From Bordetella parapertussis (GTDB taxonomy: Bacteria; Pseudomonadota; Gammaproteobacteria; Burkholderiales; Casimicrobiaceae): a stretch of 64,000 nucleotides of DNA. The DNA is taken from assembly GCA_943331295.2 (NCBI GenBank), contig CALQLA020000006.1, positions 1 to 64,000 on the forward strand, written 5' to 3'. The notes beneath the pieces were generated by a model. It was given only the letters and a program-made list of their open reading frames with translations. It did not search any database and was not told where the DNA came from. This document shows, piece after piece, positions 8,172 through 36,596 of this stretch (position 1 is the stretch's first letter; every line of letters begins with the position of its first letter). A program made the position numbers and the translations under genes.

Positions 8172-8195
8172 TTCTGATCTCCTCCGGCGCAATTT

Positions 8196-8210
8196 GTCCA
8201 ATATTTGGAC
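8196..8210. promoter_or_regulatory. Candidate operator, TCCA-N5-TGGA copy 2 (perfect arms)
   Basis: GTCCAATATTTGGAC is a near-perfect 15-bp palindrome. It lies 25 bp upstream of the GTG start of the third solute-binding protein and downstream of that gene's predicted transcription start, where a bound repressor could block elongation. Confidence 0.55.
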
Positions 8211-8259
8211 TATCGTTTGCGGCGCTGCGCGCGGGCCGGGAATGGTCCGCGCACTACCG

Positions 8260-8288
8260 AAATTACGCATTGCACCCTAGAATGTCAA
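8260..8288 (-). promoter_or_regulatory. Sigma-70-type promoter for the leftward operon
   Basis: On the minus strand a consensus -35 TTGACA (8288-8283) is followed by a 17-bp spacer and a -10 TAATTT (8265-8260). Transcription would start near 8253 and give a leader of about 80 nt before GTG 8171. The operator at 8196-8210 lies within this leader. Confidence 0.6.
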
Positions 8289-8372
8289 CCTGCGGGCCTG
8301 CCCGCGACGTTGCGGAAGCCTGCTCCGGAGGGTGCACCGGATCAGGCTTCCACCTTCAGAAGCATTTGTCAT

Positions 8373-8385
8373 TTCAATATATGGA
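8373..8385. promoter_or_regulatory. Candidate operator, TCCA-N5-TGGA copy 3 (one mismatch)
   Basis: TTCAATATATGGA matches the other two dyads except for one base in the left arm. It sits 71 bp upstream of the carboxyltransferase start and just after a TTGTCA hexamer (8366-8371) that could be its -35 box, so binding would occlude the rightward promoter. Confidence 0.45.
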
Positions 8386-8456
8386 CAGATGAATTGAACG
8401 GCGGGGCGGCGCCAGGGTGCCGGTTGCCCTCGTCCCACGCCCGTTCCCCAATCGCC

Positions 8457-9995
8457 ATGGACAAGAAGATCATCGACGAGTTGCACGCCCGCCGGGCGCG
8501 GGTGCGCGGCGCCATGGCGCCCGAGGCCGCGGCGAAGCTTGCGGCGCTGGGGAAGCTCTCAGCGCGCGCCCGGATCGACCTGCTGCTCGACCCGGGGAGC
8601 TTCGTCGAGATGGGGCTCCACGGCCACAGCCAGCACCCCGACCTCGCCGCGCGCACGCCGGCGGACGGCATCGTCACCGGCCACGGCACGATCGACGGCC
8701 GCGTCGTCTACGTCACCTCCGACGACGCCACCGTCCTGGGCGGCACCCGCGGCCGCGTCGGCGAGCTGAAGGCGAGCCGCGTCCGCGCCGCCGCGCTCGC
8801 GCACCGGAAGCCCTTCATCGCGCTGATGGAAGCCGGCGCCGCGCGCGTGCAGGAAACCTACGGCGCGATGGCCGCCGGCATCGGCTCGCGCTTCGGCGAG
8901 CACCTGCGGATGTCGGGCCACGTGCCGCAGGCGGCCGCGATACTCGGCGCCGCGTTCGGCGGCCCGTCGTTCACCGCCGCGCAGTCGGACTTCACGACCA
9001 TCGCCGAGAAGACCGGCTTCATGGGCATGTCGGGACCGGTGGTGGTGAAGGTCGGCATCGGCGAGACCGTCACCAGCGCGGAGCTGGGCGGCGCCGAGAT
9101 CAGCGCGACCGTCACCGGCCAGGTCGACCACGTCGGCGCGACGGAGGCCGATTCGCTGCTCGCGATCCGGCAGTTCCTGTCCTACCTCCCGTCCAGCAGC
9201 GACGAGCTGCCGCCGATCGTCGCGGCGCGGCCCGCGGCGCTCGACACGCCCGAGGGCCGCGACCGGCTCCGCGCGCTGATCCCCGACGCCACGCGCCAGG
9301 CCTACGACATGCGAAAGGTCCTGGCGCTGATCGCCGACGCCGGCGAGGTGTTCCACTACCGCCCGCGCTATGGGCCGAACCTCATCACCGCGCTCGCGCG
9401 CGTCGCCGGCCAGACCGTGGCGTTCGTCGCGTCCAACCCGCAGGCCAAGGGTGGCGTCCTCGACGAGAAGTCGGCGCAGAAGGCGCGCAAGTTCGTCGAC
9501 ATGTGCGACGCGTTCCACATCCCGCTGGTGTTCATCACCGACGTGCCGGGCTTCCTCGTCGGCCCCGAGATCGAGCGCCAGCGGATGGTGTCGCTCGCCG
9601 CGCGCCTGCTCAACACGCTGTGCGCGGCCTCGGTGCCCAAGATCACCATCGTCGCGCGGAAGGCCATCGGCCTCGCGTACATCGCACTGGGCGGCCGCGT
9701 GATGAATCCCGACACGATCGTCGCGTGGCCGACAGCCCACTTCGACGTGATGGGCCCGGAGGCCGGCGTCGAGCTCGTCCACGGCAAGGACCTGGCCGCT
9801 GCCGCCGATCCCGTCGCCCGCCGCGCCGAGATCATGGAAAAACTCGCGCGGCAGTCGTCCGCGTACGAGGCCGCGGGCATGGGCTTCATCGACGACGTGA
9901 TCGACCCGGGCGAGACCCGCGACGTGATCATCGCTGCGCTGGCCAAGCTGGCCGCGTCGCGCCGCCCGGGATTCAAGCACCGCATCGACCCCTAG
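8457..9995 (+). CDS. Acyl-CoA carboxyltransferase (PccB/MmdA-like)
   Basis: A carboxyltransferase-family protein (PF01039) of 512 aa, the usual size for PccB. ATG 8457 (MDKKIIDELHARR) is chosen over the open frame further upstream, which runs through the candidate operator. The N-half carries GKLSARARIDLLLDPGSF and GGTRGRVGELK; the C-half has VLALIADAGEVFHYRPRYG and GGVLDEKSAQKARKF, both standard for the family. In known enzymes this subunit moves a carboxyl group between biotin and an acyl-CoA, but no biotin carboxylase or carrier gene is in the window. It leads a rightward operon with a hydratase and an MFS transporter. It may carboxylate, or decarboxylate, an intermediate of the catabolic route. 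Confidence 0.85.
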   Translation: MDKKIIDELHARRARVRGAMAPEAAAKLAALGKLSARARIDLLLDPGSFVEMGLHGHSQHPDLAARTPADGIVTGHGTIDGRVVYVTSDDATVLGGTRGRVGELKASRVRAAALAHRKPFIALMEAGAARVQETYGAMAAGIGSRFGEHLRMSGHVPQAAAILGAAFGGPSFTAAQSDFTTIAEKTGFMGMSGPVVVKVGIGETVTSAELGGAEISATVTGQVDHVGATEADSLLAIRQFLSYLPSSSDELPPIVAARPAALDTPEGRDRLRALIPDATRQAYDMRKVLALIADAGEVFHYRPRYGPNLITALARVAGQTVAFVASNPQAKGGVLDEKSAQKARKFVDMCDAFHIPLVFITDVPGFLVGPEIERQRMVSLAARLLNTLCAASVPKITIVARKAIGLAYIALGGRVMNPDTIVAWPTAHFDVMGPEAGVELVHGKDLAAAADPVARRAEIMEKLARQSSAYEAAGMGFIDDVIDPGETRDVIIAALAKLAASRRPGFKHRIDP

Positions 9996-20414: not shown

Positions 20415-21383
20415 CTATGCCCGTTTTTCGCGCGCCGCGCGTCGCGCCGCCCGCGGGGGCGCGATCCGGACCTGGGTGATCTTCTCGATCAGCAAGGCGC
20501 CTTCGTCGCGCAGGAACTCGCTGAACGCGAGCGCGACCGGCGGCAGGCGCTTGTTCCTGCGGTGCACGACGTACCAGTTCAGCATCAGCGGGAACCCCTG
20601 CACGTCGAGGACGGCCAGGCTGCCGTCGCGCATCTCCTTGCCGATCGTGTGCGCCGACAGCACGCTGATGCCCATGCCGGCGACGACCGCCTGCTTGATC
20701 ATCTCGGTGCTGTGGATCTCCATCGCGATGTTGAGCTTCGCGAGGCGCCGGCCGAACGCCTGCTCCATCGAGTTCCACGTGTCGGAGCCGCGCTCGCGCA
20801 CGACGAAGCGCTCCCGCGAAAGCGTCGCGAACGAAATCTTCCGCTCCTTGGACAGCGGGTGGCCGGGCGCAGCGACGATCACGTAGGGATGCGGCGCGAA
20901 TGCCGCGGCGACGGTGTCGGGGCCCTCGGGCGGGCGCACCATGATCGCGAGGTCGGTGAGGTTGTCTGCCATCTGCCGCAGGAGCTCCTCGCGATTGTGG
21001 ACCGCGAGGTTCAGCGACACGCCGGGGTGCCGGCCGGTGAACTCGGCGAGGAGACGCGGAAAGAAATAGTCGCCGGCGCTGATCACCGCGACGTTGAGGC
21101 GGCCGCCCGAGACACCCTTGTGCCGGTCCATCGCCGCCTCGGCCTCGCGGAACTGCTCGATGATGTCCCGGCCGTGCCCGAGGAGCTCGAGGCCCGCCGG
21201 GGTCAGGTAGACCTTCTTGCCGAGGTGCTCGAACAGCGGCACGCCGGCGTGCGTCGACAGCTGCTTCACCTGCGTCGACACCGCCGGCTGCGTCAGGTGC
21301 AGTTCCTCCGCGGCGCGCGAGAAGCTGAGGTGGCGCGCGACCGCCTCGAAGATCTTGAGTTGCCGCAATGTGGCGTTCTTCAT
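20415..21383 (-). CDS. LysR-family transcriptional regulator
   Basis: A DNA-binding regulator of 322 aa. The N-terminal winged helix-turn-helix (residues 1-60) contains ATLRQLKIFEAVARHLSFSRAAEEL and QPAVSTQVKQLS. The co-inducer domain follows, with FVVRERGSDTWNSMEQAF. The N-terminus resembles CbbR-type members. It is divergent from tctC across about 256 bp that holds a T-N11-A-type dyad, so it probably controls the importer and the oxalate genes. The inducer is unknown. Confidence 0.93.
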   Translation of the reverse strand: MKNATLRQLKIFEAVARHLSFSRAAEELHLTQPAVSTQVKQLSTHAGVPLFEHLGKKVYLTPAGLELLGHGRDIIEQFREAEAAMDRHKGVSGGRLNVAVISAGDYFFPRLLAEFTGRHPGVSLNLAVHNREELLRQMADNLTDLAIMVRPPEGPDTVAAAFAPHPYVIVAAPGHPLSKERKISFATLSRERFVVRERGSDTWNSMEQAFGRRLAKLNIAMEIHSTEMIKQAVVAGMGISVLSAHTIGKEMRDGSLAVLDVQGFPLMLNWYVVHRRNKRLPPVALAFSEFLRDEGALLIEKITQVRIAPPRAARRAAREKRA

Positions 21384-21430: not shown

Positions 21431-21639
21431 AAAACTATAACTGGTTACGATGGTAAGCGCGGCCTAGGATGACTGCCGCGACGGCCGCCCCCAGAAGCGG
21501 CGTCGCCCCCGATTTCAAGCGCGAGGTATTGGAGTACGATGCCCCTGCGCAAAGCGCAGCGACGCGGCGCAACGGGATCGCCGTCCGGGTCGTTCGCCCG
21601 CCGGGGGTCCACCGGATCGGAGTAATTGGAGGAGTGAGA

Positions 21640-22689
21640 ATGGAACTTCATATCGCAGCGAAGCAGGCCCGCGGCGGGCCCGTCCTGGCCCGGTGGATGC
21701 GGGTCGCCGCCGGCGTTGCATGCGCCTCGCTGGCAGGCATCGTCCCCGCGGCGGCAGCCGGCTGGGAACCGACCAAGCCGGTCGAGTTCGTCGTCCCCGC
21801 CGGCACCGGCGGCGGCGCGGACCAGATGGCGCGGCTCCTGCAGGGCGTCATCACCAAGAACAACCTGATGAAGCAGCCGCTCATCGTCGTCAACAAGTCG
21901 GGCGGCGCCGGCGCCGAGGGCTTCCTGTCGGTGAAGGACGCCAAGGGCGATCCGTACAAGATCATCATCACGCTGTCGAACCTGTTCACGACGCCTCTGG
22001 CCACCGGCGTGCCCTTCAGCTGGAAGGACATGACGCCGGTTGCGATGCTGGCGCTCGACCAGTTCGTGCTGTGGGTCAACGCCGACAGCCCGTACAAGAC
22101 CGCCAAGGAGTACCTCGACGCGGTGAAGGCCGCGGGCCCGAACAAGTTCAAGATGGGCGGCACCGGCTCGAAGCAGGAGGACCAGATCATCACGGTCGCC
22201 ATCGAGAAGGCGCTGCCGGGCACCAAGTTCATCTACATCCCGTTCAAGGGCGGCGGCGACGTCGCAGTCCAGCTCGTCGGCAAGCACATCGACTCCACGG
22301 TCAACAACCCGATCGAGGCGGTGGCGCAATGGCGCGCCGGGCAGCTGCGGCCCCTGTGCGTGTTCGACGACGAGCGGATGCCCTACAAGGCCAAGGTCAC
22401 CGACAAGATGTCGTGGAACGACATCCCGCCCTGCAAGCAGTCGGGCGTCCCGGTCGACTACCTGATGCTGCGCGGCATCTTCATGCCGGCCGGCGTGACC
22501 AAGGAACAGGTCGAGTTCTACGTCGACCTGTTCAAGAAGGTCCGCGAGACCGCGGACTGGAAGAAGTTCATGGAAGACGGCGCCTTCAATACGACGTTCA
22601 TGAGCGGCCCGGAATTCACGAAGTGGGTCGAGACGGCCGAGACCACGCATCGCGAGCTGATGCGCGAGGCGGGATTCCTCGCCAAGTAG
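21640..22689 (+). CDS. tctC: Tripartite tricarboxylate transporter substrate-binding protein (Bug family)
   Basis: The periplasmic receptor of a TctCBA importer, 349 aa. ATG 21640 follows GGAGGAG; the frame remains open further upstream but without a better site. A signal peptide (ARWMRVAAGVACASLAG) ends near AAAAGWEP. The Bug family blocks are present: PVEFVVPAGTGGGADQMARLL, NKSGGAGAEGF, KMGGTGSKQEDQI and the FKGGGDVAVQLVGKHID loop that caps the ligand. Family members bind small di- and tricarboxylates. With oxalate enzymes downstream, oxalate or another C2-C4 acid is the likely ligand; this is inference. Confidence 0.92.
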   Translation: MELHIAAKQARGGPVLARWMRVAAGVACASLAGIVPAAAAGWEPTKPVEFVVPAGTGGGADQMARLLQGVITKNNLMKQPLIVVNKSGGAGAEGFLSVKDAKGDPYKIIITLSNLFTTPLATGVPFSWKDMTPVAMLALDQFVLWVNADSPYKTAKEYLDAVKAAGPNKFKMGGTGSKQEDQIITVAIEKALPGTKFIYIPFKGGGDVAVQLVGKHIDSTVNNPIEAVAQWRAGQLRPLCVFDDERMPYKAKVTDKMSWNDIPPCKQSGVPVDYLMLRGIFMPAGVTKEQVEFYVDLFKKVRETADWKKFMEDGAFNTTFMSGPEFTKWVETAETTHRELMREAGFLAK

Positions 22690-22708
22690 TCCGCCGAAAG
22701 GGACGCCG

Positions 22709-22729
22709 GCCGGCGCCAAACGCGCCGGC
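22709..22729. promoter_or_regulatory. Intercistronic hairpin after tctC
   Basis: Perfect 8-bp arms GCCGGCGC and GCGCCGGC flank a 5-nt loop. There is no T-tract. Such a structure could protect the 3' end of tctC mRNA and raise binding-protein levels over TctB and TctA. Confidence 0.5.
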
Positions 22730-22794
22730 GCGGGGTCCCCGCGCGGCCGGCGCGCCGCCGAGCCTTTCTTCCCGCACCGCCACCGGTAACTGAC

Positions 22795-23346
22795 ATGAAT
22801 GAAGACGAATCCGCCGGCGCCGCCGCCGGCATCTCGACACGCACCGTCGAAATCGTGGTCGCGGTGCTGCTGTTCGCATTCGGCGCGGTCGTCGTCTACG
22901 ACAGCCACCGGCTGGGCTCGACCTGGGGCAGCGACGGCCCGGAGGCGGGCTACTTCCCGTTCTACATCGGCGCCTTCATCTGCATCTCGGCCGCGGTGAC
23001 GCTGGGCCAGGTGCTGTTCGACGACTGGAAGCGCCGGCAGCAGCGGTTCACTGGCGCCGTCGAGTGCAAGCGCAACGAGTTCGTCGGACGGGAGCCGCTG
23101 AAGCAGGTGCTGTCCGTGCTGCTCCCGGCGCTCGTCTACGTTGCATTCGTGCAGGTGATCGGCATCTACGTCGCGTCGGCCGTGTACATCGCCATCTTCA
23201 TGGTGTGGCTCGGCAAGTACAGCTGGGGCAAGAGCGCGGCGGTCGGGCTGGCGGTGGTCGCCAGCATCTTCGTGCTGTTCGAGGTGTGGTTCAAGGTGCC
23301 GCTGTACAAGGGCATCGTCGATCCGCTCGCCTTCCTGGGCTACTGA
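22795..23346 (+). CDS. tctB: Tripartite tricarboxylate transporter small membrane protein
   Basis: The small membrane subunit of the TctCBA importer, 183 aa. Four hydrophobic segments are visible: IVVAVLLFAFGAVVVYD, then YFPFYIGAFICISAAVTLG, then VLSVLLPALVYVAFVQVIGIY and AAVGLAVVASIFVLFEVWF. The G-PEAGYFPFY motif is typical. It lies between tctC and tctA in the usual order. No binding function is known for this subunit alone; it pairs with TctA. Confidence 0.9.
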   Translation: MNEDESAGAAAGISTRTVEIVVAVLLFAFGAVVVYDSHRLGSTWGSDGPEAGYFPFYIGAFICISAAVTLGQVLFDDWKRRQQRFTGAVECKRNEFVGREPLKQVLSVLLPALVYVAFVQVIGIYVASAVYIAIFMVWLGKYSWGKSAAVGLAVVASIFVLFEVWFKVPLYKGIVDPLAFLGY

Positions 23347-23404
23347 GGCGCGCGGCGCCCCGGCACAACCTCCCCGCACGCGAACACTTCCACGAGGTTT
23401 TCCC

Positions 23405-24895
23405 TTGGTCGAACTCGGCGCACTGTTCCACGGATTCGCGGTCGTCCTCACGCCGTTCAACATGCTGCTGATGATGATCGGCATCGTGCTGGGCGTCATC
23501 ATCGGCGTCCTTCCCGGCCTGGGCGGCGCCAACGGCGTCGCGATCCTGCTGCCCCTCACCTTCACGATGCCGCCGACGTCGGCGATCATCATGCTCTCCT
23601 GCATCTACTGGGGCGCGCTGTTCGGCGGCGCGATCACGTCGATCCTGTTCAACATCCCGGGGGAGCCCTGGTCGGTCGCGACCACGTTCGACGGCTACCC
23701 GATGGCCCAGCAGGGCCGCGCCGGCGAGGCGTTGACCGCGGCGTTCACGTCGTCGTTCGTCGGCGCGTTCTTCGCGGTCGTGATGATCACGTTCCTGGCG
23801 CCGATGGTCGCCAAGTTCGCACTCCAGTTCGGCCCCCCGGAGTTCTTCGCCGTCTACCTGCTCACGTTCTGCAGCTTCATCGGGATGGGCAAGGGCTCGG
23901 CGTGGAAGACGCTGGCCGCGATGATGCTGGGCTTCGCGCTGGCCGCGGTCGGCATGGACACCGTCACCGGCCAGCTGCGGCTCACCTTCGGCATCGGCGA
24001 GCTGATGCGCGGCTTCGACTTCCTGATCGCGGTGATCGGGCTGTTCGGCATCGGCGAGATTCTGCTGTCGATGGAGGAAGGCCTGTCCTTCACCGGCAAG
24101 AGCGCGAAGATCGATCTCAAGGTGGTGATCACGACGTGGAAGCAGCTGCCGAAGTACTGGGCGACGTCGCTGCGCAGCACGCTGGTCGGCATCTGGATGG
24201 GGATCACCCCCGGCGGCGCGACCCCGGCATCGTTTATGGGCTACGGCATCGCGAAGCGGATGTCGAAGAACGGTGCCAATTTCGGCAAGGGCGAGATCGA
24301 GGGCGTGATCGCGCCGGAAACCGCGGCGCACGCGGCCGGCACCAGTGCGCTGCTGCCGATGCTGGCGCTGGGCATCCCCGGCTCGCCGACAGCGGCCGTG
24401 CTGCTGGGCGGGCTGCTGATCTGGGGCCTCCAGCCAGGGCCCCTGCTGTTCGTCGAGCAGAAGGACTTCGTCTGGGGCCTCATCGCCAGCATGTACCTCG
24501 GCAACCTCGCGGGGCTCATCGTGGTGCTGACCTGCGTCCCGCTGTTCGCGGCGATCCTGCGCATCCCGTTCTCGATCATCGCGCCGGTGATCATCGTGAT
24601 CTGCGCGATCGGCGCCTACACCGTCCACAACGCGATGCTCGACATCTGGCTGATGCTGCTGTTCGGCGTCGTCGGCTACGTCTTCAAGAAGCTCGACTAC
24701 CCGCTCGCGCCGCTGGTGCTGGCGCTGGTGCTGGGGGACCGGGCCGAGGATTCGTTCCGACAGACGATGCTGATGTCGCAGGGCGAGGTCAGCATCTTCT
24801 ACGCCAACTGGCTGGTCGGCGGCATCACGACGCTCGCGCTGGTGATGCTGTTCTGGCCGCTGGCGTCGAAAGTGATCGGAAAGCTGCGCGGCTAG
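23405..24895 (+). CDS. tctA: Tripartite tricarboxylate transporter large permease
   Basis: The large membrane subunit, 496 aa, with about 12 hydrophobic segments and conserved loops GVLPGLGGANGVAILLPLTF and GITPGGATPASFMGYGIAKR. Uptake in this family is thought to be ion-coupled. Translation probably starts at TTG 23405 after a weak GAGG. The stop codon TAG (24893-24895) is made of the target TA duplicated by the IS630 insertion plus the first base of the element. Without the insertion the sequence would also read TAG, so the protein is intact. Confidence 0.93.
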   Translation: MVELGALFHGFAVVLTPFNMLLMMIGIVLGVIIGVLPGLGGANGVAILLPLTFTMPPTSAIIMLSCIYWGALFGGAITSILFNIPGEPWSVATTFDGYPMAQQGRAGEALTAAFTSSFVGAFFAVVMITFLAPMVAKFALQFGPPEFFAVYLLTFCSFIGMGKGSAWKTLAAMMLGFALAAVGMDTVTGQLRLTFGIGELMRGFDFLIAVIGLFGIGEILLSMEEGLSFTGKSAKIDLKVVITTWKQLPKYWATSLRSTLVGIWMGITPGGATPASFMGYGIAKRMSKNGANFGKGEIEGVIAPETAAHAAGTSALLPMLALGIPGSPTAAVLLGGLLIWGLQPGPLLFVEQKDFVWGLIASMYLGNLAGLIVVLTCVPLFAAILRIPFSIIAPVIIVICAIGAYTVHNAMLDIWLMLLFGVVGYVFKKLDYPLAPLVLALVLGDRAEDSFRQTMLMSQGEVSIFYANWLVGGITTLALVMLFWPLASKVIGKLRG

Positions 24896-26045
24896 TGTAG
24901 TGATTCGTAATTAATAGACTATTTATGACCTGCCGAATCCAAGGTGTATACGATGCACTTTGGAGGCGGGGATGCGAAAGGCGACGGCGATTGAACTGGA
25001 CGACGCACAGCGGGATAAGCTGGTGAAGCTGGCGCAATCGAATACGACCGAAGTGCGGTTGGCGCGGCGCGCCAGCACCGTGCTGCTGGCGGCGGACGGG
25101 CTGGATAATCACCGCATCGGCGAGTTGCTCGGCGTTGGTCGGATTCAGGCGGGACGTTGGCGTGAGCGTTATGCGATCGGCGGATTGAAAGCCATCGAGC
25201 AAGATCTGCCGCGCGGCGGGCGCAAGCCCAAGATCGACCCGGCCGAGATCGTGCGCCTGACCAAGCCGGAGGGTGCGACCCAGTGGAGCACGCGGAGCTT
25301 GGCGGCGGTGGTCGGCGTAAGCGACACCGCGATCCAGCGCATTTGGAGCGCGCGTGGTTTGAAGCCGCATCGGGTCAAGCGCTTCAAGGTGTCGCGCGAT
25401 CCCAGGTTTGTCGAGAAGCACGAAGACATCGTCGGGTTGTACATGGCGCCGCCCGAGCACGCGCTGGTGCTCTGTTGCGATGAGAAGAGCCAAGTGCAGG
25501 CGCCGGATCGAACCCAGCCGGGCTTGCCTATGAAGCCGGGTCGTGCGGCCACCATGACCCACGACTACAAGCGCAACGGTACCACCACGCTGTTTGCCGC
25601 CATGAATAGGCTCGACGGCTCGGTCATCTCGCACTGCGAGCAGCGCCACCGCCATGTCGAGTGGCTCGTCTTCCTGCGCCAGATCAACCGCGAAACGCCG
25701 CAAGACAAGTCCCTTCATCTGATCTGCGACAACTACGCCACGCACAAGCATCCGAAGGTCAAGGAGTGGCTGGCCGAGCATCCACGCTTCCAAGTTCATT
25801 TCACCCCGACCTCGGCGTCCTGGCTCAACATGGTCGAGCGGTTCTTCCGCGATATCACGACCCGGCGCTTGCGCAACGGCGTGTTTCGCAGCGTCCCGGA
25901 ACTGACCGCTGCCATCAAGGAGTACATCGTCGCGCATAACGAAAATCCAAAGCCGTTCGTCTGGGCCGCCAGGGCTCACGACATCCTCGCCAAGGTGATT
26001 CGCGCCAATCGCAAGTTAAGTTCCAAACAGAACGAAGCACTACAC
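24895..26045 (+). mobile_element. IS630-family insertion sequence, 1151 bp, intact
   Basis: The element is flanked by TA (24893-24894 and 26046-26047), the TA duplication typical of IS630. Imperfect terminal inverted repeats begin GTGTAGTGATTCGT on the left and GTGTAGTGCTTCGT on the right (13 of 14 identical) at 24895-24908 and 26032-26045. Its base composition is visibly lower in G+C than the neighbours. It separates tctCBA from oxc, frc and the formate genes, so it may change read-through transcription. Confidence 0.93.
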
Positions 26046-26048
26046 TAG
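24972..26048 (+). CDS. IS630-family transposase
   Basis: A single-frame DDE transposase of 358 aa. The N-terminus is a helix-turn-helix region (RLARRASTVLLAADGLDNHRI...). The catalytic acids lie in VLCCDEKSQVQA, in LICDNYATHKHPKV and in SWLNMVERFFRDI. ATG 24972 is chosen since GGAGG lies 5 bp upstream. The stop codon TAG (26046-26048) is outside the element: it is made by the duplicated target TA plus the flanking G, so the reading frame ends correctly only because of the insertion site. The gene appears intact, so the element could still be active. Confidence 0.95.
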   Translation: MRKATAIELDDAQRDKLVKLAQSNTTEVRLARRASTVLLAADGLDNHRIGELLGVGRIQAGRWRERYAIGGLKAIEQDLPRGGRKPKIDPAEIVRLTKPEGATQWSTRSLAAVVGVSDTAIQRIWSARGLKPHRVKRFKVSRDPRFVEKHEDIVGLYMAPPEHALVLCCDEKSQVQAPDRTQPGLPMKPGRAATMTHDYKRNGTTTLFAAMNRLDGSVISHCEQRHRHVEWLVFLRQINRETPQDKSLHLICDNYATHKHPKVKEWLAEHPRFQVHFTPTSASWLNMVERFFRDITTRRLRNGVFRSVPELTAAIKEYIVAHNENPKPFVWAARAHDILAKVIRANRKLSSKQNEALH

Positions 26049-26144
26049 CGACGTCCAAGCCGCCGTCCCGGAATCGATCGCGGGCTGCGCTCGACGGACG
26101 CCGCGACCGGACCCATTCGAAAGTCATCGAGGAGGACAGGAACC

Positions 26145-27935
26145 ATGAGCGAAGCGACAGCGACGACCAGGGAGGCAGGCACCGCCGGCGCCTCGCCCGG
26201 CGCCGGCAGCGGCGGAGAGATCGACCGCCCGGCGCCGGAGACCGACGGCTTCCAGCTCGTCATCGACGCCCTCAAGCTGAACGGCATCGACACGATCTTC
26301 GGGCTCCCCGGCATCCCGATCACCGACCTGACGCGCAAGCTGCAGCGCGCGGGGCTGCGCGTGATCTCGTTCCGCCACGAGCAGAACGCCGGCTACGCCG
26401 CGTCCATCGCCGGCTTCATCACGCAGAAGCCGGGCATCTGCCTGACGGTGTCCGCCCCCGGCTTCCTCAACGGCCTGACGGCGCTCGCCAACGCCACCAC
26501 GAACTGCTTCCCGATGATCCTCATCAGCGGCTCCTCCGAGCGCGAGATCGTCGATCTGCAGCAGGGCGACTACGAGGAGATGGACCAGCTCGCGATCGCC
26601 CGGCCGCACGCGAAGGCCGCGTTCCGGGTCCTGCACGCCGAGGACATCGGTGTCGGCGTGGCGCGCGCGATCCGCGCCGCCGTGTCGGGCCGTCCCGGCG
26701 GCGTGTACCTCGACCTGCCGGCGAAGCTCTTCCCGCAGGCGATCGACGCCGAGCTGGGCCGGAACTCGCTGATCAAGGTCGTCGATCCGGCGCCGCGCCA
26801 GATCCCCGCGCCGGACGCCGTGCAGCGCGCGCTCGACCTCCTGAAGGGCGCGAAGCGGCCGCTGATCCTCCTCGGCAAGGGCGCCGCCTACGCGCAGGCC
26901 GACGCGGACATCCGCGCGCTGGTGGAGCGGACCGGCATCCCCTATCTGTCGATGTCGATGGCCAAGGGCCTGCTGCCCGACACGCACGACCAGTCGGCGT
27001 CGGCGGCTCGGTCGTACGTGCTGCCCGAGGCCGATGTCGTGATGCTGGTCGGCGCGCGGCTCAACTGGCTGCTCTCGCAGGGCAAGGGCAAGACCTGGGG
27101 CGGCAAGACCGCCAAGGCGTGGGGTGGCCAGCGGTTCATCCAGGTCGACATCTCGCCGCAGGAAGCGGACAGCAACGTCCGCATCGAGGCGCCGGTCGTC
27201 GGCGACATCGGCTCCTGCGTCGCGGCGATGCTGGGCGGGATCGGGCCGGACTGGCCGCAGCCGCCGGCCGAGTGGCTCGACGCCATCGCGGAGCGCAAGA
27301 CGACGAACGTGGCGAAAATGGCGGAGTCGCTGGCCAAGGACCCGACGCCGATGAACTACCACAGCGCGCTCAACGTCGTGCGCGACATCATCCGCGCGAA
27401 CCCCGACGCCATGCTGGTCAACGAGGGCGCGAACGCGCTCGACTTCACGCGCAGCATCGTCGACATGTACAAGCCGCGCAAACGCCTCGACGTCGGCACG
27501 TGGGGCGTCATGGGCATCGGCATGGGCTTCGCGGTCGGGGCGGCCGTGGTCAGCGGCGAGCAGGTGATCGCGATCGAGGGCGACAGCGCCTTCGGCTTCT
27601 CGGGCATGGAATGCGAGACGATCTGCCGCTACAACCTGCCGGTCTGCGTAGTGATCCTGAACAACAACGGCGTCTACCGCGGCGACGAGGTGAACCCGAC
27701 CGGGGGCAGCGACCCGTCGCCGCTCGTCTTCGTCAAGGGCGCGCGCTACGAGAAGCTGATGGAGGCCTTCGGCGGCACGGGCGTGGTGGCCACGACGCCG
27801 GCCGCGCTCCGCGCCGCGATGGAGGAGGCGATCCGCACGCGCCGTCCGACGCTGATCAACGCGGTGATCGACGAGAAGGCGGGCACGGAAAGCGGCCGCA
27901 TCACCAGCCTCAATCCCACCGCGAAGAAGAAATAG
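26145..27935 (+). CDS. oxc: Oxalyl-CoA decarboxylase
   Basis: A thiamine-diphosphate enzyme that splits oxalyl-CoA into formyl-CoA and CO2. The protein is 596 aa, slightly long because of an N-terminal tail of about 30 residues. The activating glutamate is Glu79 ([17 protein letters not shown]). The ThDP/Mg motif starts with GDS at 479-481 and ends with NNNG at 506-509. ATG 26145 follows GAGGAGGA. It is the first gene after the IS630 insertion and lies 61 bp before frc. An alternative is a related ThDP decarboxylase, but the frc neighbour makes this call secure. Confidence 0.95.
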
Positions 27936-27996: not shown

Positions 27997-29244
27997 ATGA
28001 GCAAGGCATTGGACGGCGTCAAGATCCTCGATTTCACGCACGTGCAGTCGGGCCCGACCTGCACGCAGCTGCTCGCCTGGATGGGCGCCGACGTGATCAA
28101 GGTCGAGCGCGCCGGCGAAGGCGACATCACGCGCGGGCAGCTGCGCGACATCCCGGACGTCGACAGCCTCTACTTCACGATGCTGAACCACAACAAGCGC
28201 TCGATCACCGTCGACGCCAAGCATCCGAAGGGCAAGGAGGTGCTGGAGGCGCTGGTGAAGAAGTGCGACGTGCTGGTCGAGAACTTCGCGCCCGGCGCGC
28301 TCGAGCGGATGGGCCTCACCTGGGAGCACATCCAGTCGCTCAACCCGCGGATGATCGTCGCGTCGGTCAAGGGCTTCGGCCCGGGGCCCTACGAGGACTG
28401 CAAGGTGTACGAGAACGTCGCGCAGTGCGCGGGCGGCGCCGCCTCGACCACCGGCTTCGACGACGGCCCGCCTCTGGTCACCGGCGCGCAGATCGGCGAC
28501 AGCGGCACCGGCCTCCATCTCGCGCTCGGCATCGTCGCGGCGCTCTACCAGCGCAACACCACGGGCCGCGGCCAGAAGGTGCTGGCCGCGATGCAGGACG
28601 GCGTGCTGAACCTCTGCCGCGTGAAGCTGCGCGACCAGCAGCGGCTCGACCGCACCGGCACGATGCAGGAATACCCGCAGTACCCGAACGGCAAGTTCGG
28701 CGCGGCCGTGCCGCGCGCCGGCAACGCCTCGGGCGGCGGGCAGCCGGGCTGGATCCTGAAGTGCAAGGGCTGGGAGACAGATCCCAACGCGTACATCTAC
28801 TTCATCACGCAGGCGCCGGTCTGGAAGGACATCTGCGAGGTGATCGGCAGGCCCGAGTGGCTGACCGACCCGCGCTACGCGACGCCGAAGGCGCGGCTGC
28901 CGCACCTCAAGGACATCTTCGACGACATCGAGAAGTGGACGATGACCAAGACCAAGTTCGAGGCGATGGACATCCTCAACCAGCACGACATCCCCTGCGG
29001 TCCGATCCTGTCGATGAAGGAAATCGCCGAGGAGCCCAGCCTGCGCAAGACCGGCACCGTGGTCGAGGTCGACCACCCGACGCGCGGCAAGTACCTGACC
29101 GTGGGCAACCCGATCAAGATGTCCGACAGCGCGACCGAGGTCACGCGCTCGCCTCTGCTGGGCGAGCACACCGACGAGGTGCTGGCCGAGCTGGGCTACG
29201 GCCCCGCGCAGGTCGCGGAGCTGCGCGCGGCGAAGGCGATCTAA
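27997..29244 (+). CDS. frc: Formyl-CoA:oxalate CoA-transferase
   Basis: A class III CoA-transferase of 415 aa that moves CoA from formyl-CoA to oxalate, so the pair with Oxc cycles CoA. The catalytic Asp is Asp168 in [14 protein letters not shown], one residue from the known Asp169. The glycine loop GGGQPG is near residue 248. The N-terminal [16 protein letters not shown] is a family block. It lies 61 bp after oxc. A REP-like repeat pair follows before the next gene. Confidence 0.96.
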
Positions 29245-29273: not shown

Positions 29274-29381
29274 CCTAGCCCGGGTTGAGCGGCAGCGAAA
29301 CCCGGGCGGACCGCGCGAAGGCTGCACCCGCGCCGATGGCTGCGCCCGCCCGGATTTCGCATTCGCTCAATCCCGGCTACG
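29274..29381. repeat. REP-like palindromic repeat pair (site B)
   Basis: Two inverted REP-like units at 29274-29306 and 29349-29381 (TAGCCCGGGTTGAGCG and the reverse GCTCAATCCCGGCTACG), with about 42 bp between them. It lies between frc and the formyltransferase-like gene, so transcripts crossing this junction would carry a large hairpin. Confidence 0.75.
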
Positions 29382-29399: not shown

Positions 29400-30332
29400 A
29401 TGAAACTCGCGATCATCGGACAGCAGGACTTCGGCAAGGCCGTGCTGGAAGCGTTCCTGGCGCGCGGCGACACCGTCGCGGGCGTGTTCTGCGCGCAGGA
29501 CAAGCCGGGCGCGAAACCCGACCCGCTGAAGACCGCGGCGGTGGAGCGCAACGTCCGGCTGTTCCAGCTCCCGTCGCTGAAAAGTACCGAGGCGCTGGCG
29601 GCGATGCGCGAGCTCGACGTCGAGATCGGCGTGATGGCCTACGTGCTCCAGTTCGCGCCGCAGGACTTCGTCAACATCCCGAAGCACGGGACGATACAGT
29701 ACCACCCGTCGCTGCTGCCGCTGCACCGCGGCCCCAGCTCGATCAACTGGCCGATCATCCGCGGCCGATCGATGACCGGGCTCACGATCTTCCGGCCGAC
29801 CGACGGCCTCGACGAAGGCCCGGTGATCCTGCAGAAGGAAGCCGCGATCGGCCCGGAAGACACGCTGGGCAGCGTCTATTTCGAGCGTCTTTTCCCGCTC
29901 GGCGTGGCGGCCATGCTCGAAGCAGCCGATCAGGTCGTCGCCGGCCGCCACACCGAGACGGTGCAGGACGAGGCGCAGGCGAGCTACGAGGGCTGGTGCC
30001 GCGCCGCCGAAGCGAAGATCTCGTGGCACGACCACGTCGACCACGTCTACGACCTGATCCGCGGCTGCAATCCCGCGCCCGGCGCCTGGACCACGCTCGC
30101 CGGCAAGAAGCTCCAGGTCTTCGACGCGAAGAAACACCCGACACGCACCTTCGGCGCCGTCGTCGGCAAGCCCGGCGAGATCGCCGCGGTCGGCGACGGG
30201 AGCATCCGCGTCACCACCCACGGCGGCCAGATCGAGGTGTTCAAGCTGAAGCACGAGGACGGCAAGAAGATGTCCGCCGCCGACTTCGCGCGCGAAGCCG
30301 GCCTCGTCGCCGGCACGCCGCTCGGCACCTGA
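29400..30332 (+). CDS. Stand-alone 10-formyl-THF dehydrogenase hydrolase-domain protein (formyltransferase family)
   Basis: A 310-aa protein of the formyltransferase fold. It matches the N-terminal hydrolase domain of eukaryotic 10-formyltetrahydrofolate dehydrogenase rather than methionyl-tRNA formyltransferase: MKLAIIGQ start, TIQYHPSLLP, SSINWPII, and TDGLDEGPVILQKE. The catalytic pair is His102 and Asp138, 36 apart, as in the known domain. A C-terminal lobe of the usual length is present, but the aldehyde-dehydrogenase half is absent. It lies between frc and formate dehydrogenase. By context it may release formate from 10-formyl-THF or transfer a formyl group between folate and CoA; this is inference. 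Confidence 0.8.
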   Translation: MKLAIIGQQDFGKAVLEAFLARGDTVAGVFCAQDKPGAKPDPLKTAAVERNVRLFQLPSLKSTEALAAMRELDVEIGVMAYVLQFAPQDFVNIPKHGTIQYHPSLLPLHRGPSSINWPIIRGRSMTGLTIFRPTDGLDEGPVILQKEAAIGPEDTLGSVYFERLFPLGVAAMLEAADQVVAGRHTETVQDEAQASYEGWCRAAEAKISWHDHVDHVYDLIRGCNPAPGAWTTLAGKKLQVFDAKKHPTRTFGAVVGKPGEIAAVGDGSIRVTTHGGQIEVFKLKHEDGKKMSAADFAREAGLVAGTPLGT

Positions 30333-30365: not shown

Positions 30366-32075
30366 ATGACCGATCCGCACGCACTGAAGCGCACCATCCC
30401 GATCGCCGACGCGCGCGGCGGAGGGCGCAAGGTGCGCCCGGTGATGAAGGGGCGCACGCTCGAACCGCGGGCGCTGGATGAAGTCCGGGCGCTGCTGGGC
30501 GGCGACCCGCGACGGCGCGACCTGCTGATCGAGTACCTGCACCGGATCCAGGACCGCTTCGGCCACATCTCGGCCGCGCACATCGTGGCGCTGGCCGCCG
30601 AGATGAAGCTCGCGATGACCGAGGTCTACGAGGTCGCGACCTTCTACCATCACTTCGACGTCGTGAAGGAAGGCGACGCGGTGCCGCCGAGGCTCACGGT
30701 GCGCGTCTGCACGTCGCTGTCCTGCGCGATGGCGGGCTCGGCCGACCTGCTGGCGCGGCTGCCGCAGGTCCTGGGCGCCGACGTGCGCGTGCTTCCCGCG
30801 CCCTGCCTCGGCCGCTGCGACACGGGCCCGGTCGCGGTGGTCGGGCGCAATCCGGTCGACCGCGCGACGCCGGCGAGCGTCGGCGCGGCAGCCGCGGCCA
30901 ACGCCACGGCCCCGGCCGCGCTGCCCTACGTCACGTACGACCAGTACCGCGCGGCTGGCGGCTACCGGACGCTGAAGGCGCTGGCCGGCAACCCCGGCGC
31001 GCTCGACGCCGCGATCACGACGATGGAAGACTCGGGCCTGCGCGGCCTGGGGGGCGCCGGGTTCCCGACCGGCCGCAAGTGGCGGATCGTCCGCGCCGAG
31101 CCCGCGCCGCGCCTCATGGCGGTCAATATCGACGAAGGCGAGCCCGGCACGTTCAAGGACCGTTATTACCTCGAGCGCGATCCGCACCGCTTCATCGAAG
31201 GCATGCTGATCGCCGCGCTGGCGACCGACATCCATGCCGCCTACCTGTACCTGCGCGACGAATACGCCGGCTGCCGCGAGATCCTGACCCGCGAGCTGGC
31301 GGCGCTTGCCGCCGACCCGCCCGTGCCGCTGCCCGAGATCCACCTGCGCCGCGGCGCCGGCGCGTACATCTGCGGCGAAGAGTCGGCGATGATCGAGTCG
31401 ATCGAAGGCAAGCGCGGGATGCCGCGGCTGCGGCCGCCGTACGTCGCGCAGGTGGGCCTGTTCGACCGCCCGACGCTCGAGCACAACATGGAAACGCTGT
31501 ACTGGGTCCGCGACATCCTCGAGCGGGGCGCGCCGTGGTTCGCGAACCAGGGAAGGAACGGCCGCAAGGGCCTGCGCTCGTTCTCGGTGTCGGGCCGCGT
31601 GGCGAAGCCCGGCGTGCACCTCGCGCCGGCGGGCATCACCGTGCGCGAGCTGATCGCCGAGTACTGCGGCGGCATGCTCCCCGGCCACGAGTTCTACGCG
31701 TACCTGCCGGGCGGTGCGTCGGGGGGCATCCTGCCCGCCGCGATGGGCGACATCCCGCTCGATTTCGACACGCTGAACGCGCACGGCTGCTTCATCGGGT
31801 CGGCGGCGGTGATCGTGCTGTCGCAGCACGACCGGGCGCGCGACGCGGCGCTCAACATCATGCGGTTCTTCGCCGACGAGTCCTGCGGGCAATGCACGCC
31901 CTGCCGCGTGGGCACCGAGAAGGCGGCGCGCCTGATGGCCGCGCCGCGCTGGGACGCTCCGCTGCTGGAGGAGCTGTCGCAGGTGATGGCCGACGCGTCG
32001 ATCTGCGGCCTGGGGCAGGCGGCGCCCAACCCGATCCGCTGCGTCGTCAAACATTTTCCGCACGAACTGGGATGA
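30366..32075 (+). CDS. Formate dehydrogenase beta subunit, NuoE-NuoF fusion
   Basis: The diaphorase part of an NAD-linked formate dehydrogenase, 569 aa. Residues 1 to about 160 are NuoE-like with four cysteines (115, 120, 147, 151) for a 2Fe-2S cluster. The rest is NuoF-like: GLRGLGGAGFPTGRKW for NADH/FMN, GAYICGEESAMIESIEGKRG, and SCGQCTPCRVG for a 4Fe-4S cluster. The same fusion is known in the FDH1 type. ATG 30366 is chosen over an upstream TTG. The stop is 10 bp before the alpha subunit start. Confidence 0.92.
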   Translation: MTDPHALKRTIPIADARGGGRKVRPVMKGRTLEPRALDEVRALLGGDPRRRDLLIEYLHRIQDRFGHISAAHIVALAAEMKLAMTEVYEVATFYHHFDVVKEGDAVPPRLTVRVCTSLSCAMAGSADLLARLPQVLGADVRVLPAPCLGRCDTGPVAVVGRNPVDRATPASVGAAAAANATAPAALPYVTYDQYRAAGGYRTLKALAGNPGALDAAITTMEDSGLRGLGGAGFPTGRKWRIVRAEPAPRLMAVNIDEGEPGTFKDRYYLERDPHRFIEGMLIAALATDIHAAYLYLRDEYAGCREILTRELAALAADPPVPLPEIHLRRGAGAYICGEESAMIESIEGKRGMPRLRPPYVAQVGLFDRPTLEHNMETLYWVRDILERGAPWFANQGRNGRKGLRSFSVSGRVAKPGVHLAPAGITVRELIAEYCGGMLPGHEFYAYLPGGASGGILPAAMGDIPLDFDTLNAHGCFIGSAAVIVLSQHDRARDAALNIMRFFADESCGQCTPCRVGTEKAARLMAAPRWDAPLLEELSQVMADASICGLGQAAPNPIRCVVKHFPHELG

Positions 32076-32085
32076 GGGCGCGACC

Positions 32086-34863
32086 ATGATCGAATTCACA
32101 CTGAACGGCCGCGCCGTGGCGGCGCTGCCCGACGAGACGATCCTGCAGGCGGCAGACCGCGCCGGCATCCCGATCCCGCGCCTCTGCTACACCGAGGGCC
32201 TGCGCCCGGACGGCAACTGCCGCGCCTGCGTCGTCGAGATCGACGGCGAGCGGGTGCTGGCGCCGTCGTGCTGCCGCGCGCCGAAGCCGGGCATGAAGGT
32301 TTCGTCCGACAGCCCGCGGGCGACGCACTCGCAGAAGATGGTGCTGGAGCTGCTGCAATCGGACATGCCCTCGCGCGTGTACGACCCGGCGTCGGAGCTC
32401 GACCTCTGGTCCGGACGGATGAAGATCGGCAAGCCGCGCTTCGCGCCGCGGATGTCGCCGGGACCGGACCTGTCGCACCCGGCCATCGCGGTCAACCTCG
32501 ACGCCTGCATCCAGTGCACGCGGTGCGTGCGCGCCTGCCGCGAGTCGCAGGTGAACGACGTCATCGGCTTCGCGTTCCGCGGCGCGCACGCGGAGATCGT
32601 GTTCGACTTAGGCGACCCGATGGGCGAGAGCACCTGCGTGGCCTGCGGTGAATGCGTGCAGGCCTGCCCGACGGGCGCGCTGATGCCCGCGCGCGAGGCC
32701 GGCCTCGTCGCGGCGGACCGCACTGTCGACTCGCTGTGCCCGTACTGCGGCGTGGGCTGCCAGCTCACCTATCACATCAAGGACGACAGCATCGTCCGCG
32801 TCGAGGGCCGCGACGGCCCCGCCAACCACGGGCGGCTGTGCGTCAAGGGCCGCTACGGCTTCGACTACGTGAGCCACCCGCAGCGGCTCACCACGCCGCT
32901 GATCCGCCGCGCCGACGCGCCGAAGTCGGCCGACTTCACGATGGACCCGGACGACATCCACAGGATCTTCCGCGAGGCGACGTGGGAGGAGGCGCTCGCC
33001 GCCGCCGGCGGCAGGCTGCGCGAGATCCGCGACACCCGCGGCCCGCAGGCGCTGGCAGGTTTCGGCTCGGCCAAGGGCAGCAACGAGGAGGCCTACCTGT
33101 TCCAGAAGCTCGTCCGCACCGGCTTTCGCACCAACAACGTCGACCACTGCACCCGGCTGTGCCACGCGTCGAGCGTCGCCGCGCTGCTCGAGGGGATCGG
33201 CTCCGGCGCCGTGTCCAACCCGGTGATGGACGTGCTGCAGGCGGACGTCGTGCTGCTGATCGGCGCCAACCCGGTGGTCAACCACCCGGTCGCCGCGACG
33301 TGGCTCAAGAACGCGGTCAAGCAGGGGACGAAGCTGATCCTCGCCGACCCGCGGCGCTCCGAGCTCGCGCGCCACGCCACCCATTACCTGCAGTTCAAGC
33401 CCGACACCGACGTCGCGCTGCTCAACGCGATGATGCACGTGATCGTCGCCGAGGGGCTCGTGGACAAGGCGTTCGTCGCCGAGCGCACCGACGGCTACGA
33501 GGCACTGCGGAAGAACGTCGAAGGCTTCAGTCCCGAGGCGATGGCGCCGCTGTGCGGCATCCCGGCGGAGACGATCAAGACCGTGGCGCGGCTCTACGCG
33601 ACGTCGAAGGGCTCGATGATCCTCTGGGGGATGGGCATCTCGCAGCATGTGCACGGCACCGACAACGCGCGCTGCCTGATCGCGCTGTCGCTGATGACCG
33701 GGCAGATCGGCCGCCCGGGCACGGGCCTGCATCCGCTGCGCGGCCAGAACAACGTGCAGGGCGCGTCGGACTCGGGCCTGATCCCGATGATGTATCCCGA
33801 CTACCAGCGGGTCGCCAACCCGGACACGCGGCAGAAGTTCGAGCACCTGTGGGGAACGAAGCTCGACCACCAACCCGGGCTGACGGTGGTCGAGATCATG
33901 GACGCCGTCCATGCGGACAAGATCACCGGGATGTACATCATGGGCGAGAACCCGGCGATGTCCGACCCCGATGCGCAGCACGCGCGGGCGGCGCTCGCCC
34001 ATCTCGAGTGCCTCGTCGTGCAGGACATCTTCCTCACCGAGACAGCGTACCTCGCCGACGTGATCCTGCCTGCCTCCGCGTTCCCGGAAAAGACGGGCAC
34101 CTTCACCAACACCGATCGCACCGTGCAGCTCGGCCGGCAGGCGCTGCCGCCGCCGGGCGACGCGCGGGCCGACCTGTGGCTGATCCAGGAGATGGCGCGC
34201 CGGCTGGGCCTCGACTGGAACTACGCCGGCCCCCGCGACGTCTGGAACGAAATGCGCACCGCGATGCCGTCGATCGCGGGCATCACCTGGGAGCGACTCG
34301 AAGCGGAATCCGCGGTCACCTACCCGTGCGAGTTCGAGGGCGATCCGGGCGAGCGCGTGGTATTCACCGAGGAATTCCCGACCGCGACCGGCCTCGCGCG
34401 CTTCGTCCCGGCCGACATCATCCCGGCGGCGGAGCAGCCGGACGCCGACTACCCGATGGTGCTGATCACCGGCCGCCAGCTCGAGCACTGGCACACGGGC
34501 AGCATGACGCGCCGCACCGCGGTGCTCGACGCGATCGAGCCGGAGCCGGTGGCGTCGATGAACTCGGCCGACCTCGCGCGCCTGTCGATCGCGCCCGGCG
34601 ACGTGATCACCGTGGCGTCGCGGCGCGGCCAGATCAGCCTGTTCGCGCGCGCCGACGAGGGCACGCCGGTCGGCGCGCTGTTCGTCCCGTTCTGCTACTA
34701 CGAGGCGGCCGCGAACATGCTGACCAACCCGGCGCTGGATCCGTTCGGCAAGATTCCCGAGTTCAAGTACTGCGCCGTGCGCGTCACCGCCGGCGGCGGA
34801 TTGGCCGCGCACAAGAGCTTCGGCGGCGGGCAGCGCCTCCCCGCCATCGAAACCACGCACTGA
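32086..34863 (+). CDS. Formate dehydrogenase alpha subunit (molybdo/tungstopterin)
   Basis: Oxidises formate to CO2 with a bis-pterin Mo or W centre and passes electrons to the beta subunit. The 925-aa protein begins with a 2Fe-2S domain (Cys34, 45, 48, 62). It continues with two 4Fe-4S motifs ([11 protein letters not shown] and [12 protein letters not shown]) and the CPYCGVGC motif before the pterin domains. The metal ligand is Cys359 in RLCHASS, encoded by TGC, so no selenocysteine is used. ATG 32086 follows GAGGGCG. It is 60 bp before fhs. No maturation gene (fdhD or similar) is in view. Confidence 0.93.
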
Positions 34864-34922
34864 TTGCCCGCACCCGGGCGCCGCCCGGTGCCCGTAGCCA
34901 TCGACAACCACGAGGTCAAGCC

Positions 34923-36596
34923 ATGCCCAGCGACATCGAGATAGCCCAGAAAGCGAAGATGCTCCGCATCAACGACATTGCTGCGAAGCTGGGCATCCCC
35001 GAGGACCACCTCGACGCCTACGGCCGCTACAAGGCCAAGGTCTCGCTCGACTACATCGACACGCTGAAGGACAAGCCGAACGGCAAGCTGATCCTCGTCA
35101 CCGCGATCAGCCCCACCCCGGCCGGCGAAGGGAAAACCACGACCACCGTGGGCCTGGGCGACGCGCTGAACCACATCGGCAAGAAGGCCGTGATCTGCCT
35201 GCGCGAGCCGTCGCTCGGACCGGTGTTCGGCATGAAGGGCGGCGCCGCCGGCGGCGGCTACGCGCAGGTGGTGCCGATGGAGGACATCAACCTCCACTTC
35301 ACCGGCGACTTCAACGCGATCGGGCTCGCCAACAACCTGCTCGCCGCGCTGATCGACAACCACATCCACCACGGCAACGAGCTCGGCTTCGACGTCCGCC
35401 GCATCGCGTGGAAGCGCGTGATGGACATGAACGACCGCGCGCTGCGCGACATCACCGTGTCGCTGGGCGGGCCCGGCAACGGCTACCCGCGCCAGGACGG
35501 CTTCGACATCGTCGTCGCCTCAGAGATCATGGCGATCTTCTGCCTCGCCACCAGCATCAAGGACCTGAAGGAGCGGATCTCGAAGATCGTCGTCGGCTAC
35601 ACGCGCGACCTGAAGCCGATCCTCGCCCGCGACCTCAAGGCACAGGGCGCGATGACCGCGCTGCTCAAGGACGCGCTGCACCCGAACCTCGTGCAGACGC
35701 TGGAGAACAGCCCCGCGTTCATCCACGGCGGCCCGTTCGCCAACATCGCCCACGGCTGCAACTCGGTGATCGCGACGCAGACGGCACTGAAGCTCGCCGA
35801 CTACGTGGTCACCGAGGCCGGCTTCGGCGCCGACCTGGGCGCCGAGAAGTTCATCGACATCAAGTGCCGGAAGAGCGGGCTGCGCCCCGACGCCGTCGTC
35901 ATCGTGGCGACCATCCGCGCGCTCAAGTACCACGGCGGGATCGACCTGAAGGAGCTCAACAAGGAGAACCTGCCGGCGCTGGAGAAGGGCATCGCCAACC
36001 TCGAGCGGCACGTCAACAACATCCGCAACCACTACGGCCTGCCGTGCATCGTGTCGATCAACCACTTCACGTTCGACACCGACGCCGAGATCGACCTCCT
36101 GAAGCGCAAGATGGCGCACCAGAGCGCGCCGGTGATCCTGGCGCGGCACTGGGCCGAGGGCGGCAAGGGCGCCGCCGACGTCGCGCGCGCCGTCGTCCAG
36201 ATGATCGAGACCACGCCCAGCAACTTCAAGTTCGTCTACGAGGAGTCCGCGACGCTGTGGGAGAAGATCAACGCCATCGCGACCAAGATCTACGGCGCCT
36301 CCGAAGTGACCGCCGACAGCAAGGTGCGCGGCCAGATCAAGCGGCTGCAGGACGAGGGCTACGGCCACTACCCGGTGTGCGTGGCGAAGACGCAGTACTC
36401 GTTCTCGACCGACGCATCGCTGCGCGGCGCGCCGTCGGGACACTCGATCAACGTCCGCGAAGTGCGCCTCGCGGCCGGGGCCGAGTTCGTCGTTATGGTC
36501 TGCGGCGACATCATGACGATGCCGGGCCTGCCGAAGGTGCCGTCCGCCAACGCGATCGACGTCAACGACGAAGGCAAGATCGTCGGGCTGTTCTAG
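34923..36596 (+). CDS. fhs: Formate-tetrahydrofolate ligase
   Basis: Activates formate with ATP and joins it to THF, giving 10-formyl-THF. The protein is 557 aa, the normal length. The ATP site is [11 protein letters not shown] (P-loop near residues 65-75), and the conserved [18 protein letters not shown] follows. ATG 34923 begins [12 protein letters not shown]. It ends the oxalate/C1 cluster and offers an assimilatory fate for formate as an alternative to oxidation by the formate dehydrogenase. A short hairpin in the upstream gap and one after the stop are visible. Confidence 0.97.

Follow-up and report, generated by a model that had tools for sequence, protein, structure and literature searches.

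Cells contain formate in two activated forms, formyl-CoA and 10-formyl-tetrahydrofolate (10-formyl-THF). An exchange of the formyl group between such carriers has otherwise been proposed only for HypX (PMC6802093) and, on a tethered arm, for ALDH1L1 (PMC8748788), the 10-formyl-THF dehydrogenase (FDH), where the proposed physiological role of the N-terminal domain is to charge the thiol of 4'-phosphopantetheine with the formyl group of 10-formyl-THF (PMC8748788). Upon isolation, the same domain hydrolyses 10-formyl-THF in vitro (PMC4388273, PMC8748788), which proceeds only with high, non-physiological thiol (PMC8748788). The N-terminal domain of HypX binds CoA and THF and was proposed to form formyl-CoA from 10-formyl-THF, for which the authors concede that there is no direct proof (PMC6802093). 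The cycle of Frc and Oxc with ACOCT priming (YfdE) shares the pathway and operon setting of the protein described here, termed FTD, but it moves CoA between acids, whereas FTD would move a formyl group between CoA and folate. The formyltransferase domain itself is already known, and it is its stand-alone use beside oxalate genes that appears to be new.

This arrangement is found in the window, by which we refer to the entire analysed stretch of 64,000 nucleotides, where oxc, frc, FTD, the fused subunits of a NAD-type formate dehydrogenase, fdhA and FTL form a run on the same strand:

20415..21383, minus strand: LysR-type regulator, divergent from the transporter genes
21469..24895, plus strand: TctC-TctB-TctA tripartite carboxylate transporter (TctC by Pfam, TctB and TctA by position and similarity to relatives)
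26145..27935, plus strand: oxc, oxalyl-CoA decarboxylase (TIGR03254, 965 bits, above cut-off)
27997..29244, plus strand: frc, formyl-CoA:oxalate CoA-transferase (TIGR03253, 745 bits, above cut-off)
29400..30332, plus strand: FTD, stand-alone FDH-type formyltransferase of 310 amino acids, similar to the ALDH1L1 N-terminal domain (Pfam, homology, AlphaFold model)
30366..32078, plus strand: NAD-type formate dehydrogenase, fused NuoE-like and NuoF-like subunits (ATG at 30366 taken as start)
32086..34863, plus strand: fdhA, formate dehydrogenase alpha subunit (TIGR01591, 765 bits, above cut-off)
34920..36596, plus strand: FTL, formate--tetrahydrofolate ligase (PRK13505, 937 bits, above cut-off)

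The fused diaphorase subunit is the sole operon neighbour of FTD that does not exceed a curated cut-off. The position between frc and formate dehydrogenase, from which a preliminary description of the locus had started, is confirmed by these assignments, to which FTL and a separate gene for methionyl-tRNA formyltransferase (Fmt) elsewhere in the genome, both absent from that description, have now been added. The open reading frame of FTD extends exactly from 29400 to 30332, starts with ATG and contains no internal stop. As anticipated, the dehydrogenase half is missing: Pfam detects Formyl_trans_N (residues 1-160, E 1e-25) and Formyl_trans_C (202-299, E 1e-20), but neither a carrier nor an aldehyde dehydrogenase domain, nor the enoyl-CoA hydratase-like C-terminal domain that is a trait of HypX, and the stop at 30332 is followed by the formate dehydrogenase subunit gene. 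A broken or truncated ALDH1L could be ruled out, as there are no remnants of the lost domains and many intact stand-alone relatives. An apparent fusion of frc and FTD in one alphaproteobacterial genome (G500, open frame of 730 residues) proved to be false, with two genes residing in different frames.

The nearest solved relatives of FTD are the N-terminal domains of 10-formyl-THF dehydrogenases and not Fmt, in line with the identity initially assigned to the protein. In a phmmer search against solved structures, the N-terminal domain of ALDH1L1 (1s3i, E 2e-54) precedes Fmt (E 9e-35), and a profile of 49 FTD sequences yields the same order (ALDH1L1 1e-86, Fmt 4e-62, HypX 2e-20). The match to ALDH1L1 and ALDH1L2 covers the full length at 34-36% identity in structural alignment, and the catalytic residues His102, Ser104, Asp138 and Tyr196 of FTD, which are invariant in all 117 aligned relatives, correspond to His106, Ser108, Asp142 and Tyr200 of FDH. 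Both share signature residues that are unlike Fmt in the alignment (F85, Y101, P103, S113, F131 and E197 in FTD). The pairing of His102 and Asp138 at a spacing of 36 residues, which had originally been regarded as an ALDH1L pattern, is present but not diagnostic, since Fmt contains the same pair in the same alignment columns, and we have rejected it as a criterion. Similarly, the fold alone cannot distinguish FDH from Fmt: in the confident AlphaFold model (pLDDT 94.9) the FDH hydrolase domain ranks first by Foldseek E-value, whereas the TM-scores of Fmt are equal or higher. FTD differs from ALDH1L1 and ALDH1L2 in the lack of carrier-protein and aldehyde dehydrogenase domains, in its genomic setting within formyl-CoA metabolism and at position 100, where the hydrophobic Ile104 of ALDH1L and the Asn of Fmt are replaced by Gln (111 of 117 relatives) or Cys (6 of 117). 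The N-terminal formyltransferase domain of HypX is homologous, and the same two carriers, 10-formyl-THF and CoA, have been proposed for it, but its identity to FTD is only 17-18% and it is fused to an enoyl-CoA-hydratase-like domain in a protein that makes CO for hydrogenases. The formyltetrahydrofolate deformylase PurU also uses 10-formyl-THF and its catalytic domain is related, although the score of FTD against TIGR00655 (25.8 bits, cut-off 285.95) reflects a match only in the catalytic core. Scores against the sugar formyltransferases ArnA (121.6 vs 777 bits) and PRK06988 (123.4 vs 316 bits) fall below the curated cut-offs, and no NCBIfam model accepts FTD.

The association with oxalate genes is conserved. 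Among the 80 best FTD relatives from 84,980 species genomes, 71 could be tested, having at least 1.3 kb of upstream DNA, and in 55 of these FTD is immediately preceded by frc in the same orientation. In another eight (L027, L034, L060, L076, L079, L087, L091, L093), frc, oxc or a substitute TPP enzyme is located elsewhere in the locus, so that 63 of the 71 reside in oxc/frc or equivalent operons and the remaining eight in loci without any of these genes, contrary to an occurrence of relatives mainly outside oxalate clusters. All frc copies tested beside FTD pass the TIGR03253 cut-off. In two broader samples, frc directly precedes FTD in 7 of 9 cases (phylum) and in 13 of 21 (alphaproteobacteria). 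The co-occurrence of FTD with oxc and frc, a check set beforehand, was positive. In the phylum sample of 397 genomes FTD is found in 10, OXC in 33 and both in 9; excluding the genome of the window, OXC is present in 8 of 9 genomes with FTD compared to 24 of 387 others (P 6e-9, or 3e-6 if counted by genus), and in 289 alphaproteobacterial genomes, 11 of the 24 with FTD are among the 13 with OXC above the cut-off (P 7e-12), with all P values taking no account of shared ancestry beyond genus. Conversely, 24 of 32 OXC genomes of the phylum sample lack FTD, which is therefore not required for oxalate breakdown. The identity of FTD across beta- and alphaproteobacteria, at 39-84%, is far above chance, and in a quick tree with many weak branches and a long FDH outgroup branch, the deepest forks within the family have oxalate-linked copies on either side, which makes the linkage look old.

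Oxc-Frc-FTD-FTL(-FdhGB-FdhA) is a recurrent gene order at identities of 41-52% (L149, L151, L155, L164 and plasmid CP031587). In distant alphaproteobacteria at about 50% identity (L145, L151, L155), the genes appear as transporter, OXC or TPP enzyme, Frc, FTD, FTL, FdhGB and FdhA, with the transporter part missing from L151. FTL directly follows FTD in many alphaproteobacterial operons and is its only recognised partner in L115. A Paracoccaceae plasmid (FTD identity 41%) carries oxc-frc-'fmt_2'-fhs together with genes for a Tct transporter, ketopantoate reductase, PEP carboxylase and succinate/malate-CoA ligase; searches of plasmids and phages contained this single close copy on a plasmid (41%), the rest showing about 32% identity or less, with the annotated plasmid proteins being Fmt. 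Six loci retain Frc and FTD but contain a substitute TPP enzyme instead of OXC:

L029, 688-2439: substitute TPP enzyme
L057, about 6763-8500: substitute TPP enzyme
L145, 8559-10277: substitute TPP enzyme
L148, 4729-6441: substitute TPP enzyme
L150, 4954-6675: substitute TPP enzyme
L163, 10013-11707: substitute TPP enzyme

This protein, also present in L027, L060 and L079, scores next to models of 2-hydroxyacyl-CoA lyase and acetolactate synthase (OXC score about 243 vs a cut-off of 739) and either replaces OXC upstream of frc and FTD or accompanies frc and an OxlT-like transporter. An acetolactate-synthase/HACL-like TPP enzyme likewise adjoins FTD in 6 of the 13 alphaproteobacterial FTD genomes without OXC (G492, G500, G515, G523, G658, G720), each with frc beside FTD. 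The substitute enzyme is a candidate for either an oxalyl-CoA decarboxylase of a second type or a different lyase that yields formyl-CoA, and formyl-CoA is plausibly the metabolite common to both kinds of operons.

The exceptions comprise, among the best relatives, four loci of Mesorhizobium and Pseudaminobacter and L022, L024, L035 and L086, and 8 of 21 copies in the alphaproteobacterial sample, which adjoin neither frc nor oxc. Several alphaproteobacterial copies neighbour a putative pterin dehydratase or other genes named by eye; the respective genomes include three with OXC elsewhere (G546, G558, G624) and three with a lower-scoring OXC-like protein (G603, G676, G682). The exceptions suggest that the activity may exceed oxalate use or that some members may have diverged, and the formyl-CoA handled by the family may have more than one origin.

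The described properties are best accounted for by a stand-alone formyltransferase acting on CoA and THF, as it resides beside enzymes that make or use formyl-CoA and often beside FTL. Further neighbours in keeping with this view are serine-cycle-like or PEP carboxylase/CoA-ligase genes (L086, L140) and ketopantoate-reductase-like genes. Since CoA carries the same phosphopantetheine arm as the carrier of ALDH1L1, the chemistry of the latter supports this assignment, which is strengthened further by the fact that 'hydrolase domain' is an in vitro name for a domain whose proposed role in vivo is formyl transfer to a thiol. In the proposed mechanism, THF would bind in the N-terminal Rossmann-like domain, while the pantetheine end of formyl-CoA would reach the centre formed by His102, Ser104 and Asp138, similar to the 4'-phosphopantetheine arm proposed in ALDH1L1, so that N10 of THF could take over the formyl group of the thioester (formyl-CoA + THF <-> 10-formyl-THF + CoA). 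In the operon, Oxc would produce formyl-CoA, most of which would be recycled by Frc by putting CoA on the next oxalate, and FTD would divert a part into the folate pool for biosynthesis, with FTL joining this pool with formate and formate dehydrogenase oxidising formate to yield CO2 and NADH. The best-supported interpretation is that FTD directly links formyl-CoA to the folate pool, as already considered in the preliminary description, whose other suggestion, a formate-releasing role, is the weaker one. That FTD exchanges formyl groups between CoA and THF in either direction appears probable to us. Its specific function as formyl-CoA:tetrahydrofolate formyltransferase operating towards THF is proposed with more caution, at somewhat below even chances. 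By general energetics, a thioester donates its formyl group more readily than 10-formyl-THF, so that this direction should be downhill and would yield C1 units.

These energetics, by which the equilibrium should favour the formylation of THF, weigh against the opposite net direction, where FTL would generate 10-formyl-THF from formate, ATP and THF, and FTD would transfer its formyl group to CoA, to start the Frc cycle and to replace the CoA thioester that is lost when oxalyl-CoA is reduced to glyoxylate. The same direction has been proposed for ALDH1L1 and HypX, and it would be in line with FTL being the next gene after FTD in many alphaproteobacterial operons, in one case as sole recognised partner, and with the possible oxalyl-CoA reductases near FTD in several loci. 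Moreover, Frc needs formyl-CoA as CoA donor, and the need for priming was recognised in E. coli, where YfdE/ACOCT was proposed to fill it (PMC3720670). Other priming enzymes exist, however, and we regard this direction as rather unlikely. Similarly unlikely is a 10-formyl-THF hydrolase that frees formate and THF, thereby feeding formate dehydrogenase and preventing the trapping of folate in its formylated form. The next gene of the operon indeed encodes formate dehydrogenase, the Asn of transferases is missing as in FDH, and the isolated ALDH1L1 domain catalyses this reaction in vitro (PMC4388273, PMC8748788), albeit with the thiol requirement noted above (PMC8748788); however, in combination with FTL it would create a futile ATP-burning loop, and it offers no reason for the finding that the partners seen most constantly are frc and enzymes that produce formyl-CoA.

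The proximity to frc in formyl-CoA operons would also be compatible with a hydrolase that, with or without bound folate, splits formyl-CoA into formate and CoA, and for the related 2-HIBA pathway no specific formyl-CoA hydrolase is known (PMC7176365). This role is very unlikely, since formate is already set free by Frc, which conserves the thioester, formyl-CoA hydrolyses quickly on its own (half-life of 1.9 h in vitro; PMC3720670), and FTD has kept a THF-binding architecture and the FDH catalytic set. Finally, we consider it least probable that FTD is a duplicate Met-tRNA formyltransferase or an amine or sugar N-formyltransferase carried along in the operon, although the homology extends over the full length, with a common two-domain fold and His/Asp centre, and automatic annotation names a relative fmt (L140). 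FTD scores below the curated Fmt cut-off (TIGR00460, 150.1 vs 201.5 bits), contains Gln-x-His instead of Asn-x-His and, in the alignment with reference Fmts, lacks the GRGKKL-type loop insert. This insert has a role in tRNA binding. With a bona fide Fmt located elsewhere in the genome (G000:C3, 274.6 bits), we have rejected FTD as Fmt paralogue, and an activity confined to Met-tRNA is, as judged from sequence, not indicated.

The literature searched, whose scope did not extend to a paper on oxalate use in Methylobacterium (10.1128/JB.00288-12), describes neither a formyl-CoA:THF formyltransferase nor a role of FTD in oxalate operons, and neither there nor in NCBIfam did we find an enzyme dedicated to the exchange between formyl-CoA and 10-formyl-THF. 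If confirmed, the activity would define a new enzyme. We tentatively propose, as a view that may well prove incorrect, that this so far undescribed formyl-CoA:THF formyltransferase is widespread in beta- and alphaproteobacteria and directly joins the one-carbon pools of CoA and folate, forming with FTL a reversible hub of formate, ATP, formyl-CoA and formyl-THF. This hub would serve oxalate operons as well as another kind of formyl-CoA operon, hitherto unrecognised, that is built on a different TPP enzyme. Such an enzyme would account for the supply of folate-bound carbon, or for the restart of the Frc cycle, in organisms that use oxalate. It would also put right the label fmt_2 of the plasmid copy, an apparent misannotation, and could become a component of synthetic pathways from formate or CO2 via formyl-CoA.

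Several further features were observed in the window and in related loci. The Tct transporter is located upstream of oxc in the window and in many relatives and possibly mediates oxalate uptake. Between tctA and oxc, an IS630-type element (24891-26049) with 18-bp inverted ends and a DDE_3 transposase (24960-26048) is absent in the closest relative (L014) and was thus probably inserted recently into the oxalate cluster. REP/BIME-like palindromes of the sequence CCCGGGTTGAGCGNNNGCGAAACCCGGG form a facing pair in the gap between frc and FTD (29279-29306 on the plus and 29349-29376 on the minus strand) and recur at 12036, 36637, 63743 and 63796 (7 matches vs 0 expected by chance). In Mesorhizobium and Pseudaminobacter (L040, L044, L049, L082), FTD directly follows an aldehyde dehydrogenase gene, accompanied by a ModE-like regulator and no frc, a pair that is possibly a split, carrier-less counterpart of ALDH1L. 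In L086 (5972-9677), FTD is found beside genes resembling fchA, mtdA, hydroxypyruvate reductase and serine-glyoxylate aminotransferase, with CoA-ligase genes (sucCD/mtkAB-like) further along, which by eye constitutes a serine-cycle block. Ketopantoate-reductase-like genes near FTD (L015 4603-5628; L016, L022, L029, L032, L034, L079, L140), several of them in loci without adjacent oxc, are candidates for an oxalyl-CoA reductase. Finally, most betaproteobacterial loci encode, in divergent orientation ahead of oxc or frc, a small regulator that resembles CRP by eye and has no NCBIfam match (L063 6102-6833 and equivalents in 56 loci); it is likely a conserved regulator of oxc/frc/FTD operons.
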